Shown here in pieces: positions 42,942-62,823 of a DNA stretch of 64,000 nt (position 1 is its first letter; each line of letters starts with the position of its first letter). The position numbers and the translations under genes were made by a program. Under the pieces are notes generated by a model, which saw nothing but the letters and a program-made list of their open reading frames with translations, was not told the DNA's origin and did not search any database. This stretch comes from Pelagibacterales bacterium SAG-MED11 (GTDB lineage: Bacteria; Pseudomonadota; Alphaproteobacteria; Pelagibacterales; Pelagibacteraceae), in assembly GCA_014654265.1 (NCBI GenBank), contig JACWDI010000002.1, positions 62,001 to 126,000 on the forward strand, given 5' to 3'.

Positions 42942-43052
42942 TTACAGTAAGAATATTGCCATTAAAACTAAAACACCAATTACTGCGACGGTTCCCCACA
43001 ATATAAACTTTGTAAAATTATTCCAAGTGTTTTTATGGTCCTCATTATCCAT
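42942..43052 (-). CDS. aa3-type cytochrome c oxidase subunit IV, small
   Basis: 36 residues, starting MDNEDHKNTWNNFTKFILWG and ending in one hydrophobic span (TVAVIGVLVLMAIFLL). The short His-x-x-Thr-[WY]-x-x-F-x-[KL] lead into a single membrane helix matches the small COX4_pro_2 subunit of alphaproteobacterial aa3 oxidases, which resides in the inner membrane. It starts five bases after rpmJ ends and stops nine bases before the pntAA start. Confidence 0.75.
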   Translation of the reverse strand: MDNEDHKNTWNNFTKFILWGTVAVIGVLVLMAIFLL

Positions 43053-43057
43053 AAAAA

Positions 43058-43197: not shown

Positions 43198-43313
43198 GCC
43201 TGGCAAAGTCCTACTCTTCCATGTCTTAAGACAAAGTACCATCGGCGCTGAAAAGCTTGACTTCCGAGTTCGGGATGGGATCGGGTATTACCTCTTCGCT
43301 ATAATCACCAGGC
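43198..43313 (-). rRNA. rrf: 5S ribosomal RNA, separate from 16S/23S
   Basis: About 116 bases on the minus strand. It begins GCCTGGTGATTATAGCG and ends GCCAGGC, forming the closing helix, with GATCCCATCCCGAACTCGG in the centre, the universally conserved 5S loop. No 23S gene is upstream; instead a glycosyltransferase gene lies 54 bases away. It has its own promoter (43321-43348). Confidence 0.95.
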
Positions 43314-56654: not shown

Positions 56655-57689
56655 TTAAAGTTGTAATTGTTTTATCAGGTTTAGTTTAAAATTATTTTTT
56701 GAAGTTAAATTTATTTTATTAATTTCATTTATAATCTTTTTATAGTGAGATAATATGTGTTTAATTGTTCTTGTAAAATCAATTTCATTTCTTTCTGAAA
56801 CAAATAGTCCTTTTGGATAAATTTTTTTTAAAAATTTAATTTCATTAAAAATTATCACTGGTTTTTTTCTTGAAAGACTTTCTAAAATAACTTGAGGATA
56901 CCCTTCTGTATAAGAGGGCAATATAAAAATTTGATGTGAGTCATAAATTTTTTTAAGTTTTTTATTATTATTAACTTGTTTTATGATTCTTATATTTTTG
57001 TCTTTTAATCTTTCTTTTTTTTCTGCTCCTACTAAAGTCAAACTTAAATGATAATCTTCAAGTCTTTTATTCATTTTTTTAAATATACTAATTAAACTTA
57101 AATAACCTTTTTCTTGTCGAAATCTTCCAACATATAATAAGCTTATCTTTTTATTTATTTTTTTATTAAAATCTTTTTTTAACCAAAATTTATCCAGTTC
57201 AGATGGTAACAAAATCTTAAAATCTTTAAGTCTTTTAAAGTATCTAGAACAAGACAAAACATTTGAACTAGAACAAAAAATTTTAAACATAAAAAAATAA
57301 AAAAAATATCCAAAATAAGAAAATTTTATTTGATATTCTTTAAATCCATCGCTTCTCAAAAATAAATAAATTCTTTCTTTTTTAATAAATAAAATTTTTA
57401 AAATTAAAAAATAAAAAAAATTAAATGGTGTTATGGAAATAAAAAGAAACCTATAGTTTTCTTTGTAAATAATTTTTTTTATCAAACTAAAAAAATTTTC
57501 GTGGTTAAGATTCAAAAATTTTTTTTTATTAATAGTTTTAAACTTGTCTTTTCTTGATATTAAATTAACTCTAAATTTATTTCTCAATAAATTAATTAAT
57601 GTGAAAGTGTTTTTATTTTGATAATGAAGTATTTGATTTTTGTAATAAAAATTATCATTGGAAAAAACGGAAATGTTATCTTTTTTCAT
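56655..57689 (-). CDS. Family 4 glycosyltransferase
   Basis: 344 residues, GT-B fold. The C-terminal domain contains LLYVGRFRQEKGYLSLISIF and FILPSYTEGYPQVILESLSR followed by KKPVI, the E-x7-E region of GT4. The N-terminal half is a Lys/Phe/Asn-rich acceptor domain with a hydrophobic stretch near 95-150 that suggests membrane association. It overlaps the KdsB-type gene by 14 bases, so it may use the product of that pathway, although GT4 enzymes usually use UDP or GDP sugars. Confidence 0.78.
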   Translation of the reverse strand: MKKDNISVFSNDNFYYKNQILHYQNKNTFTLINLLRNKFRVNLISRKDKFKTINKKKFLNLNHENFFSLIKKIIYKENYRFLFISITPFNFFYFLILKILFIKKERIYLFLRSDGFKEYQIKFSYFGYFFYFFMFKIFCSSSNVLSCSRYFKRLKDFKILLPSELDKFWLKKDFNKKINKKISLLYVGRFRQEKGYLSLISIFKKMNKRLEDYHLSLTLVGAEKKERLKDKNIRIIKQVNNNKKLKKIYDSHQIFILPSYTEGYPQVILESLSRKKPVIIFNEIKFLKKIYPKGLFVSERNEIDFTRTIKHILSHYKKIINEINKINLTSKNNFKLNLIKQLQL

Positions 57690-58425
57690 TTTTTTTAATT
57701 AATTTTTCTACCATCTTAATATCCCTAGGATAATCCACTGCAATTGTTCCTTTTTTTGTCTTGACCATTTTAATTTTTTTTTCTTTCTCTAAAAATCTTA
57801 AAATTTCTATATCTTCAATTTTTTCTAAATAACTTTTTTTTTTATTTTTTCCAAAAATTTTAAGATCTTGTTTTGTAAAAGCATAAATACAAACTTGTTT
57901 CCAATATTGTAATTTTTTTGAACTTTTTTTAACTTTAATACCTGGAATAATTGATCTTGACATATAAATCATATCTAAATTTTTATTAAAAACTACTTTT
58001 GGTATGGATAAAGATTTTGGATTTTCATTTTTACTAATTTTTGTAGCACCACAAATAATATAATTTTTAAATTTTTTCTTAACTGATATAATTTTTTTTA
58101 TATCTTTGGGATTTATTAAAGGTTCATCTCCTTGTACGTTCACATAAATTTTTGCATTTATTTTATTTGACACTTCAGATACTCTGTCAGTTCCAGTTAA
58201 GCATTTTACAGATGTTAAAACAGACTGATAATTTTTATTTTTTACGAAATTGAAAATTTTTAATGAGTCAGTTGCTACAACTATTTTTTTTTTGTCAAAA
58301 ACTTTGTTGCACCTATCTAAAACATGTAAAATTAATTCTTTACCATTAATTTTAGCTAATGGTTTTGCTGGAAATCTAGATGACCTTATTCTTGCAGGTA
58401 TAACTATTAAATAATCCAGCATCAA
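57676..58425 (-). CDS. kdsB: CMP-keto-sugar synthase, KdsB type
   Basis: 249 residues. VIPARIRSSRFPAKPLAKIN at the N-terminus, VVATDSLKIFNFV, VNVQGDEPLINPKDIKKIIS and IYAFTKQDLKIF follow KdsB closely, and the C-terminal LEKIEDIEILRFLEKEKKIK is typical. The family activates Kdo with CTP. Its start overlaps the HMGL-type aldolase fusion gene by four bases (ATGA), whereas no KdsA or Kdo-phosphatase is nearby, so the enzyme may activate a different 3-deoxy-ulosonic acid made by the partner. Canonical Kdo activation remains the simplest alternative. Confidence 0.85.
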   Translation of the reverse strand: MMLDYLIVIPARIRSSRFPAKPLAKINGKELILHVLDRCNKVFDKKKIVVATDSLKIFNFVKNKNYQSVLTSVKCLTGTDRVSEVSNKINAKIYVNVQGDEPLINPKDIKKIISVKKKFKNYIICGATKISKNENPKSLSIPKVVFNKNLDMIYMSRSIIPGIKVKKSSKKLQYWKQVCIYAFTKQDLKIFGKNKKKSYLEKIEDIEILRFLEKEKKIKMVKTKKGTIAVDYPRDIKMVEKLIKKNEKR

Positions 58426-59978
58426 ATAATATTTAAATTTTTTAAATATTTAAAAGCAACTTTATTTTTCGTTTTGTTCATTTTTTTTAGAATATCAAAT
58501 GTATTATCTGCTGAACTTTTTCTCAGATCAAATCCAGATAGTTCAATGTAGTTAAAACGAAATTTAATTAAAATTGCTATAGCAAACGCAATCGAAATGG
58601 CACTGGGTAAAATACAAAAATCTTTGCTTATCTTAATTAAATTTGGTTTTATTATTAAATTATAGAAATATAGTTTTTTTTTATCTAATCTACTTAGTAT
58701 ATTTTCTGGCAATATACCAGTAGGTAAAATAATTTTAGAATTTGTTTTTCTAAAATTTTCAATTTCTGATGTAAGTCTTAATGGATGGCTAGAAATTCTA
58801 TAATCAATTAATTTTTCATTTATATGTTTGGTAGTATTTAAAGCTAAAACAAAATAATTTTCTTTTTTTATTTTGTCTTCTAGTAGCTTTTTATTTTGTA
58901 AATTATTAGGATTAGATCCCAATATTAGGGCCTTTTTTTGATTACCTAAATTAATATTATTTAAAGTTTTAATATTTTTTTTTGTAAACCTATCAAATAA
59001 TGAATACATTAATTCATTTGGATTGTATCGAGAAGCGTCAATTTCTTTTAAATTATTAATAATTTTTTTATAATCAAATTTTTTATATCTTTTATCATTT
59101 AGTATTGTTTGAATGTATGTTGGATGAATTTTGTATTTACCAGCAGAATTATAAAATTCATTAAATCCCCACTTATATTTTTTTTTTAAATTAACAAAGT
59201 GATTATTAATTAATCTATCAATATTTGTTGTTTTTCTTTTTTTTATTTTTTTTATTAAGTCTTCAATTTTTGCATTTCCAGCTCCCCTACCCATTCCTAA
59301 TATTGTTCCATCTGCCCAATTAAAACCATGTTTTACTGCTGTTAAAGTATTATCTAGTGCATTCTTCATATTGTCGTGAGCATGCATGCCAAGATCTCCA
59401 TGCCAGTATTTTCTAATCTTATTATTTTTATCAATTACTTGCTTTGATGTGAGAGACCCAAGGCTATCTGCAATATATAAGCAACTAATTTTATTTTTTA
59501 ACAATTTGCATACTTTCTTTATTATTATTTCACTTAATTCAGATATTTGCATTATATTAACTATGACATAATAATTTTTTCTAAGTATTGAAATCGCAGG
59601 TAAAATTTTTTCAACTTCAAATGAGTGACAGGCAATTCTTACAAATTTAATTTTTGGATCTTTTCGTGGAAAAATTTTTTTAATAACTTTAGGAATATTT
59701 TTATTACCATAAAAAATTAAATCACTCGCATTTATCATTACTCCTAATTTAACATTTTTAGGTTTTTTTATCGATTTAAGAAAATTTGATTTTGTATATG
59801 CTGTTTCCCCTAACGATGAATCTTTATCCAAAAATCTAAAACCTATCTCAACATAGTCTACATAATCAGATATTACTTTTAAATAATCATTAATTAAATT
59901 TTTATTAAATTTCCAATTATTGTAGTAACCACCATCTCTTAAGGTGCAATCTAATAAATTAGTATTTCGTCGGTTCAT
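58422..59978 (-). CDS. HMGL-type aldolase fused to an unassigned C-terminal domain
   Basis: 518 residues. The N-terminal ~270 residues are a DRE-TIM aldolase: LLDCTLRDGGYYNNWKF at 8-24, DYVEIGFRF, CLYIADSLGSL, and the metal site GDLGMHAHDNMKNALDNTL with TILGMGRGAGNAKIEDLI. Such enzymes condense or cleave pyruvate or acyl-CoA with an aldehyde. After a bridging region (270-345) a second domain begins KALILGSNPNNLQNKKLLED, with LALNTTKHINEKLIDYRISS and IELSGFDLRKSSADNTFDIL; I see a distant likeness to MAF/DUF115-type transferases but cannot assign it. It is translationally coupled to the KdsB-type gene. Confidence 0.65.
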   Translation of the reverse strand: MNRRNTNLLDCTLRDGGYYNNWKFNKNLINDYLKVISDYVDYVEIGFRFLDKDSSLGETAYTKSNFLKSIKKPKNVKLGVMINASDLIFYGNKNIPKVIKKIFPRKDPKIKFVRIACHSFEVEKILPAISILRKNYYVIVNIMQISELSEIIIKKVCKLLKNKISCLYIADSLGSLTSKQVIDKNNKIRKYWHGDLGMHAHDNMKNALDNTLTAVKHGFNWADGTILGMGRGAGNAKIEDLIKKIKKRKTTNIDRLINNHFVNLKKKYKWGFNEFYNSAGKYKIHPTYIQTILNDKRYKKFDYKKIINNLKEIDASRYNPNELMYSLFDRFTKKNIKTLNNINLGNQKKALILGSNPNNLQNKKLLEDKIKKENYFVLALNTTKHINEKLIDYRISSHPLRLTSEIENFRKTNSKIILPTGILPENILSRLDKKKLYFYNLIIKPNLIKISKDFCILPSAISIAFAIAILIKFRFNYIELSGFDLRKSSADNTFDILKKMNKTKNKVAFKYLKNLNII

Positions 59979-61671: not shown

Positions 61672-62823
61672 CTAGTTAGTTTTTTGTGTAATCTTAAACA
61701 GTTTCATAAATATATCATTGTTTGAGTCGTAACGTCCAGTGTAAATAAAATGACTCAAGTCAGGATAATCAAAAACAAGATCAAATTTTTTCATATCAAT
61801 AGGATATTCTGAGGAAATTAAACTTTTATCTTTATTATCGAAAACATTTCTTATTCTATTATGGTTCATATGAAAAAAAATTTTTGAGCAATAATTTATT
61901 TTTTCAATATAAAATTTTGCTGTATCACTTCTCATTTCTCCCAAGCTATTTTTATTAACAAATAAATCTACAGAGTTTTCACTCATTTTTGTTATTTCGG
62001 CAGAGGGCATAAAAATTAAATCAAAATTTTCACTATCTTTTTTTTCAAATTCTTTTTCTCCAAATAACAAAGTTTTTTTATTTGGGAAAGAGCTCATTAA
62101 GTAATATGCCGCCAATACAAGAACCTCTGGTATATCAAAGTCAATAAAGCATGAATCTTCAAAATTTTTAATTAAAAAATAACCCAACTTGCCATATCCT
62201 CCTCCGAGATCACAAATAATAGGTTTGCTTTTATGTTTTATATGCTCGAGTAAAATTTTTGAAATTATTTGATTAAAAAAACTTCCTATAGTAACAAAAT
62301 TTCCATCAATATAGGCACCTAATTGATTGCCAAATTCTGGGGTAGAAATTTTATTTAAATCTTTTTTTTCATATCCAAAATCTTTCCAAATTTTATAATG
62401 TTTCAAAAAGATTTCATTTTTGAGATAACTTTTCAAGATAAAATTTTTGGAATATCTTTTAAGGAGTGTATTATGCTCAATCCCTAGATAATTATTCCAA
62501 TTTCCAAAATTATTTAAAAAAAAAGAAAAATTCTCTAGATTGTTTTCTTTGAAAGAGTCAATTAAAAATTTATAATCGTTGTTAATATGATTTTGCCATA
62601 AAGATGAGGGTTTAATAATCTCAGGATTATTAATCTCTTTAATTTTCATATTTCTATAAAAAATAAAAAGTCTTTCATAGAAAACTTTTTCTGAATGGGA
62701 TGGCTCTATTTTTTTTGGATCTTTTATTATTATTTCTACAAAATTTTTTTCTTTAAATAATAGTTTAAAAACACCTGCAACGTAAGCATTAATATATACA
62801 ATTATCTTTTTTATCATGATCAA
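61672..62823 (-). CDS. Putative sugar O-methyltransferase (NanM-like)
   Basis: 383 residues. Central SAM motif KPIICDLGGGYGKLGYFLIK near residue 200, then CFIDFDIPEVLVLAAYYLMS, and the family's NKNSLGEMRSDTAKFYIEKI block near 290. This matches the putative sugar O-methyltransferase family found in surface-polysaccharide loci. An N-terminal hydrophobic stretch (1-20) may tether it. Overlaps the GT2 gene by four bases. Substrate unknown. Confidence 0.72.
   Translation of the reverse strand: MIMIKKIIVYINAYVAGVFKLLFKEKNFVEIIIKDPKKIEPSHSEKVFYERLFIFYRNMKIKEINNPEIIKPSSLWQNHINNDYKFLIDSFKENNLENFSFFLNNFGNWNNYLGIEHNTLLKRYSKNFILKSYLKNEIFLKHYKIWKDFGYEKKDLNKISTPEFGNQLGAYIDGNFVTIGSFFNQIISKILLEHIKHKSKPIICDLGGGYGKLGYFLIKNFEDSCFIDFDIPEVLVLAAYYLMSSFPNKKTLLFGEKEFEKKDSENFDLIFMPSAEITKMSENSVDLFVNKNSLGEMRSDTAKFYIEKINYCSKIFFHMNHNRIRNVFDNKDKSLISSEYPIDMKKFDLVFDYPDLSHFIYTGRYDSNNDIFMKLFKITQKTN

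Follow-up and report, generated by a model that had tools for sequence, protein, structure and literature searches.

A DRE-TIM aldolase linked to a KdsB-like enzyme suggests a pyruvate-based route to a CMP-activated ulosonic acid in a SAR11-type bacterium and in viruses

To our knowledge, bacterial ulosonic-acid pathways begin with relatives of KdsA or NeuB that depend on phosphoenolpyruvate (PEP). A pair of genes from Pelagibacterales bacterium SAG-MED11 raises the question of whether such a sugar might also be built by an aldolase and then activated by a cytidylyltransferase. The pair lies in the window, by which we mean the whole stretch of DNA analyzed (64,000 nucleotides, positions 62,001 to 126,000 of contig JACWDI010000002.1), and sits in a surface-polysaccharide island flanked by 5S and 23S ribosomal RNA (rRNA) genes. 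It encodes a fusion protein with an N-terminal aldolase domain and, beside it, a KdsB-like enzyme. From the sequence comparisons below, the reading we favor, with somewhat better than even confidence, is that the pair would form a PEP-independent, aldolase-first route to a 3-deoxy-2-ulosonic acid other than 3-deoxy-D-manno-octulosonic acid (Kdo), activated with cytidine monophosphate (CMP). In window coordinates, the features of the pair are:

58422-59978, minus strand: aldolase fusion gene, an open reading frame (ORF) of 518 aa
58953..59978, minus strand: N-terminal DRE-TIM (HMGL-like) aldolase domain, residues 1-342 of the fusion
58422..58952, minus strand: C-terminal domain, residues 343-518, with a predicted GT42 sialyltransferase/HPPK (MptE)/SteA fold
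58420..58424, minus strand: TGATG stop-start junction, read from the sequence
57676-58425, minus strand: KdsB-like gene, 249 aa from TTG, or 248 aa from ATG (57676..58422)
57676..58422, minus strand: putative KdsB-like CMP-ulosonate synthetase (CTP_transf_3, 140 bits; NF009905; QVCIY/EILR)

The original prediction of an aldolase fusion overlapping a KdsB-type gene was borne out by two minus-strand ORFs with HMGL-like and CTP_transf_3 domains. The ATGA overlap that it gave is ruled out by the sequence: the fusion stop codon TGA (58424-58422) and the KdsB start codon ATG (58422-58420) have a single base in common, which makes the junction TGATG. Homologues favor this ATG at 58422 over the TTG as the start of the KdsB-like gene. 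Translational coupling of the two genes is plausible from this arrangement.

Evidence that the two proteins act together comes from gene order. An order-level search covered 397 genomes, 39 of which matched the fusion at E 1e-15; the 39 bacterial loci examined represent 38 of these genomes plus locus L003, and leave aside G276, a fragment with no cytidylyltransferase on its 4.6-kb contig (L159). A cytidylyltransferase was the immediate neighbor of the fusion in 31 of the 39 loci (26 KdsB-like and 5 PseF-like) and lay within two genes in 34. The next gene downstream was KdsB-like in 25 loci and PseF-like in four (L052, L056, L071, and L072), the next gene upstream was KdsB-like in L051 and PseF-like in L073, and in L066, L067, and L069 the KdsB gene stood one gene further out. 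The commonest family filled 5/39 at position -1 and 6/39 at position +2. Divergent members swap the cytidylyltransferase family, and loci that lack KdsB have a PseF-like enzyme adjoining the aldolase (L052, L056, L071-L073, and L081 from another genome; calls were made by blastp for L052 and L070-L073, and for L056 and L081 by Pfam as well). The check on genomic co-occurrence suggested with the original prediction gave a result better than chance, since 28 of the 397 genomes hold both the fusion and a P0002-type KdsB against 3.8 expected (39 x 39 / 397); the KdsB threshold of at least 150 bits, passed by 39/397 genomes, was our own choice. In genome G049, the end of a fusion lies at a contig edge beside KdsB. 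Aldolase and KdsB distances were correlated in a Mantel test (r 0.36; 1 of 2000 permutations), a value confounded by shared ancestry.

The arrangement extends beyond the order. A phylum sample of 398 genomes gave three matches at E 1e-40: the window genome, G770, in which a full fusion is followed by a PseF-like enzyme and then a HAD-cluster protein, and G526, which has the aldolase part and no cytidylyltransferase in its 19.9-kb stretch. Three Leisingera plasmids encode the full fusion, and the two that were opened (L079 and L080) carry a row of fusion, KdsB, and HAD hydrolase genes among glycosyltransferase and nucleotide-sugar genes. HAD-family genes also lie close behind the fusion in L057, L062-L064, and L081. 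Among relatives of the fusion recovered by scanning contigs, the only one with a name is from an uncultured Pelagibacteraceae bacterium.

In viruses, the two enzymes occur as one polypeptide. A profile scan of IMG/VR yielded 64 loci with the aldolase, and in 40 of them the aldolase and a KdsB-like domain form a single ORF, mostly of ~550-590 aa; these 40 reduce to 22 sequences at 90% and 7 at 50% identity, and both domains of the ORF at L089:7998-9695 were confirmed by Pfam. A cytidylyltransferase is the immediate neighbor in 10 further viral loci. A phage clamp loader and a phage exonuclease are among the viral neighbors sampled, and a HAD protein lies behind the fusion in L122. Because such single-polypeptide fusions constitute Rosetta-stone evidence, they point to a joint function of aldolase and KdsB, and together with the gene linkage they are strong evidence for it. 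The expectation that aldolase and cytidylyltransferase belong together is therefore upheld by the viral fusions and by adjacent genes across the order, in Leisingera, and in a further genome from the phylum. Scans of viral contigs for close relatives of the window protein were unproductive. INPHARED phages lacked any match spanning 80% of either the window protein or the viral one, and at E 0.001 neither P0001 and P0002 nor the viral fusion had a PHROGs family. Near the viral aldolase-KdsB fusions, a separate family of stand-alone proteins recurs (L094:10279-11073 and 25 other viral contigs), of which the L094 member is MptE-like (Pfam 38.8 bits, cut-off 34.6).

The aldolase domain scores 68.1 bits against PF00682, above the curated cut-off of 29. 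The solved structure closest to it is PDB 3dxi (phmmer E 1.2e-41, residues 7-299), followed by 4-hydroxy-2-oxovalerate aldolases, and by sequence it belongs with 3dxi in the DRE-TIM superfamily. The motifs (D/E)CT(L/F)RDGG and GxHxH(D/N)N are both present in 37/37 aligned fusions (alignment A1, which excludes the truncated L061, the split-frame L065, and the fragment from G276) and in 61/64 and 49/64 viral ORFs, respectively; R14, D15, H199, H201, and N203 are invariant in all 37 fusions. We take the enolate Arg, the metal Asp, and the HxH ligands to play the roles that they have in DmpG, where metal and pyruvate enolate are held. Assignment as a simple 4-hydroxy-2-oxovalerate aldolase was rejected, as the fusion reaches 75.6 bits against TIGR03217, well below the cut-off of 286. 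The KDO8P_synth and NeuB models are absent from the 21 NCBIfam families that the fusion matches at E up to 0.1.

The KdsB-like protein matches CTP_transf_3 with 140 bits (cut-off 22.6) and lies above two subfamily models (NF009905, 260 bits for a cut-off of 255; NF003952, 238 for 193) and below the equivalog TIGR00466 kdsB (142.7 bits, cut-off 155.2). Its residues D100 and D231 align with D95 and D219 of Aquifex aeolicus KdsB, given as metal-binding Asp residues in a published account of that enzyme (PMC3149649), and are invariant in 29/29 linked KdsB sequences (alignment A2, composed only of loci with a linked KdsB and the genome's second KdsB). Five alignments with PDB KdsB structures, out of 13 matches, were compared (two of the five being alike, and 1gq9 included); in all five, the sugar domain carries H-x-G-I/L-Y together with EQLR, and the genome's second KdsB-like gene (C12:175026-175763) encodes the same signature. 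The window enzyme reads QVCIY and EILR and thus lacks the Kdo-type signature. The linked KdsB sequences have QVCIY or a close variant, with Q for H in 28/29, and EQLR in 0/29, with E-I/L-x-R in its place; the viral KdsB sequences have Q for the His of the Kdo enzymes in 46/48. We assume that the signature His itself contacts Kdo. Because the signature differs within the C-terminal domain of KdsB, the part described as binding Kdo (PMC3149649), another sugar is likely, and the product of the linked KdsB is probably not Kdo.

In the proposed pathway, the metal-dependent DRE-TIM aldolase would join pyruvate, as its enolate, to an aldose or an aldose phosphate; the resulting 4-hydroxy-2-oxoacid would be a 3-deoxy-2-ulosonate. 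In some loci, the phosphate might then be taken off by a HAD-family enzyme. The KdsB-like enzyme would join the ulosonate product to cytidine triphosphate (CTP) and, less certainly, the C-terminal sialyltransferase-fold domain or an adjacent glycosyltransferase would pass the CMP-bound sugar on to the surface glycan that the island makes. We infer the substrates (pyruvate and an aldose), the direction of the reaction, its product, and the role of the phosphatase; given all of these, the transferase step stands at about an even chance.

The C-terminal domain had been described as belonging to no recognizable family and as a possible transferase. By sequence, the first description stands for the window copy, whose best Pfam match has E 0.19. 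When PDB sequences were searched with a profile of the domain, a single match emerged (SteA-like, E 1.1), and scans with C-terminal domains returned nothing or the query's own contig only. The predicted fold, however, is recognizable. AlphaFold models of the domain were built from four sequences and are of moderate confidence (predicted local distance difference test 67 and predicted template modeling score 0.69 for the window; 62 and 0.68 for L003). Structural comparison with VIA-align placed CMP-sialic acid transferases first for both: the window model gave Z 11.4 to the Campylobacter jejuni alpha-2,3-sialyltransferase 2p56 (161 residues, root-mean-square deviation (rmsd) 3.7), 11.2 to CstII, and 10.7 to HPPK, and the L003 model gave Z 12.2 to CstII (160 residues, rmsd 3.4) and 11.5 to HPPK. 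Across both models, HPPK and SteA scored Z 9.8-11.5, and thiamine pyrophosphokinase 9.1 and 9.9; mammalian sialyltransferases came lower (7.7-8.8), and no other fold reached 6. A role as CMP-ulosonate transferase is plausible from these models, and the fold search proposed with the original prediction did recover the GT42 fold, with HPPK and SteA tying; as modeled, the fold leaves transferase and pyrophosphokinase about equal. A rather unlikely alternative keeps the aldolase-KdsB pathway and takes the C-terminal domain to be, in place of a glycosyltransferase, either a degenerate domain for docking or a nucleotide-dependent pyrophosphokinase-like enzyme (of the MptE/HPPK or thiamine pyrophosphokinase fold). 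Foldseek ranks Methanocaldococcus jannaschii HPPK (presumably MptE; E 6.4e-4) ahead of CstII (E 5e-3) for the window model, which agrees with this alternative, as do the tied Z scores and those of thiamine pyrophosphokinase. In alignment A3 (27 of the 37 fusions, with the divergent L066-L075 excluded), 12/27 domains match MptE-like (PF01973) at E up to 1, the best at 6.3e-6; the window copy does not match, and full-length L064 and L070 reach 19.7 and 21.8 bits for a cut-off of 34.6. No His is conserved in the domain (best column 15/27), and GT42 sialyltransferases, we assume, use a catalytic His. Such an extension is found on only two of the 64 viral aldolases (L128 and L137), and the domain is off consensus in L066-L069 and in the window copy, where, among other changes, position 143 is L instead of G and position 144 is R instead of Y. 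Weighing on the other side are the sialic acid transferases at the top of both VIA-align lists, the occurrence of the domain beside CMP-sugar synthetases, and the invariance of N39 (27/27). G140 is likewise invariant. The transferase proposal is thus supported by the fold, which a pyrophosphokinase fits about as well, and not by the catalytic residues; for the copy in the window itself, which differs from the consensus at several positions, it is not supported or unproven.

Two other explanations concern the enzymes themselves. The KdsB gene could encode an extra CMP-Kdo synthetase, like the capsule enzyme KpsU, fed by an ordinary KdsA, with the aldolase making an unrelated polysaccharide substituent. 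The closest solved structure to the KdsB-like protein is 1gq9, which we take to be KpsU, the genome does encode a KdsA, and 10 of the 39 genomes with this KdsB type lack the aldolase fusion; the fusion of aldolase and KdsB in 40/64 viral loci, a sugar-domain signature unlike that of Kdo enzymes (1gq9 included), and the substitution of PseF-like enzymes for KdsB beside the aldolase make the explanation improbable. Slightly less probable still is that the DRE-TIM domain performs Claisen-type chemistry with acetyl-CoA, or works in the lyase direction, and that the activated product is a nonsugar oxoacid. The superfamily includes isopropylmalate and homocitrate synthases, whose profiles also match the fusion, but of the fusion's relatives whose reaction is named, the nearest are 4-hydroxy-2-oxovalerate aldolases, and the partner enzymes come from ulosonate-activating families. 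Several observations weigh against the aldolase-first pathway itself. Coupling of aldolase and KdsB is not absolute, because the ten genomes just mentioned carry the KdsB type alone, one of them (L148) in the same downstream cassette, and 11 KdsB copies without a full fusion also carry the Q of the signature. A cytidylyltransferase is not within two genes of the fusion in 5/39 loci: L070 has a PseF-like gene three genes off, L058 has a KdsB fragment where its contig ends, L068 has none on its 6.6-kb contig, and none was found in L074 and L075. Paraburkholderia, Mesorhizobium, and Priestia plasmids carry relatives that stand alone, and an incomplete gene table annotates no cytidylyltransferase within 6 kb of them; the Streptomyces and Niallia records are unannotated at that place. 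Of the viral aldolases, 14/64 lack a linked cytidylyltransferase (L129 and L146 being at the end of their stretch), with a thiamine pyrophosphate (TPP)-enzyme family beside nine of these 14. At the active site, RDGMH of 8ih7 aligns with RDGGY of the fusion, so that the His after RDG, presumably catalytic in 8ih7, is Tyr18. For the phosphatase step, HAD_2 has no match in the window's island and the genome's two matches lie elsewhere (other HAD models were not searched). The viral L094 family (cluster 6) is not claimed as a homologue of the C-terminal domain, the hhalign probability being 31% over 27 columns.

The island that holds the pair, in a source genome of 1.10 Mb in 27 contigs (90.5% complete), is delimited by the rRNA genes in the list below, which also gives the glycosyltransferase gene next to the pair, overlapped by 14 bases by the 3' end of the KdsB-like gene:

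56655..57689, minus strand: GT4 glycosyltransferase (PF00534, 67 bits), a candidate partner
43198..43312, minus strand: 5S rRNA gene at one island edge (Rfam RF00001)
C12:152044-154796: 23S rRNA gene at the opposite island edge (Rfam RF02541)

The hypervariable region 2 (HVR2) of SAR11 is described as an island of lipopolysaccharide (LPS) genes between the 5S and 23S rRNA genes (PMC2217521), an architecture that is the same in this genome; because of this match, we infer that the genome is of SAR11 type. Canonical KdsA and NeuB had been reported as absent, which is true of the window, where genome-wide PF00793 and PF03102 searches place neither. It is not true of the genome: KdsA is encoded on contig C21 (TIGR01362, 413.5 bits for a cut-off of 314; the single PF00793 place genome-wide), and a NeuB-family gene (C12:144243-145328; the single PF03102 place) lies in the same island past the end of the window. 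Their absence was accordingly dropped as support. The NeuB gene belongs to a second ulosonate-type set (C12:139427-145328, L037) that also comprises a Polysacc_synt_2 dehydratase, which we take to be PseB-like, a CTP_transf_3-aldo/keto reductase fusion, and a DegT aminotransferase; this set is separate from the aldolase pair, ~22 kb apart within the island. A pntA small RNA motif (42995-43056) adjoins the 5S rRNA gene.

Further observations concern relatives of the two genes. In L071:7742-9778, a fusion of a cytidylyltransferase and a class-III aminotransferase directly precedes a divergent aldolase fusion, with the PseF-like gene after it, and L059:3009-4037 encodes a second, stand-alone aldolase relative of 342 aa with SpsF-type and NeuB-type families (assigned by cluster) two and three genes on. 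The Paraburkholderia (pSYM) and Mesorhizobium (root nodule) plasmids, L164 and L165, carry a stand-alone aldolase with short-chain dehydrogenase/reductase and HAD genes, one HAD protein having a SET domain as well. KdsB proteins of the QVCAY/QICAY type occur without the aldolase in five genomes (L149-L153), beside a conserved protein of 311-312 aa with what we take to be a heptosyltransferase-like start. A family of ~235 aa with an LGSKPGS motif near its start and no Pfam match recurs near these KdsB genes (L048:10618-11319, L147:9195-9905). In the viral loci L132, L133, L136, L139, and L141-L145, what follows the aldolase is not KdsB but the TPP-enzyme family and another conserved protein, which in L132 is phosphoribosyltransferase-like; these loci possibly belong to another pathway.

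Taken broadly, the aldolase-KdsB pair would represent a third general way of making CMP-3-deoxy-2-ulosonates, with a DRE-TIM pyruvate aldolase in the place of PEP-dependent KdsA or NeuB, in SAR11-type bacteria, Leisingera, and phage-like contigs; it would include a viral bifunctional protein that makes and activates the sugar and a bacterial aldolase fused to a transferring domain of sialyltransferase fold. We rate this wider proposal as tentative, a little short of even. No paper on an aldolase-KdsB route is among the matches listed from the open-access literature, a body of text that mostly leaves out subscription journals. If true, the aldolase-first route would open a new way into sialic-acid-like sugar chemistry and assign a function to the protein family of 3dxi, a solved structure named only a "putative aldolase." It would also supply a bifunctional enzyme, ready-made by viruses, and imply that SAR11-type bacteria carry a surface sugar not yet known. 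The linked-KdsB signature would serve as a simple marker for such loci.

Known systems share parts of this arrangement. Like the SAR11 HVR2, SAR11 myophages (pelagimyophages) carry LPS genes (PMC7029224), and the words aldolase and cytidylyltransferase appear in the main text of neither the HVR2 nor the pelagimyophage paper (PMC2217521, PMC7029224). The predicted C-terminal fold resembles those of GT42 sialyltransferases (CstI/CstII) and MptE/HPPK, from which the domain differs in being shorter, in its 14-20% identity in structural alignments, and in having no conserved His. With 4-hydroxy-2-oxovalerate aldolases (the TIGR03217 enzyme, presumably DmpG), the fusion has the superfamily, the RD motif, and the HxH site in common; it differs in its low TIGR03217 score, in Tyr for His, and in its polysaccharide context. 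PDB 3dxi has the same RDGGYY motif as the fusion, but it is a 320-residue chain with no named reaction and aligns with the aldolase part only. The pathways of NeuB/PseI with NeuA/PseF likewise make a 3-deoxy-2-ulosonate and then activate it with CMP, and five bacterial loci, as well as L081, have a PseF-like enzyme adjoining the aldolase; the aldolase itself has no NeuB match, and the genome's NeuB set is separate. From KdsA-KdsC-KdsB, the pair differs in its HMGL-type aldolase without a KdsA match, in its KdsB signature, and in the lack of an HAD_2 gene in the window's island, whereas the logic would be the same: a chain-extending synthase, a HAD enzyme in some loci, and CMP transfer by a KdsB-family enzyme.

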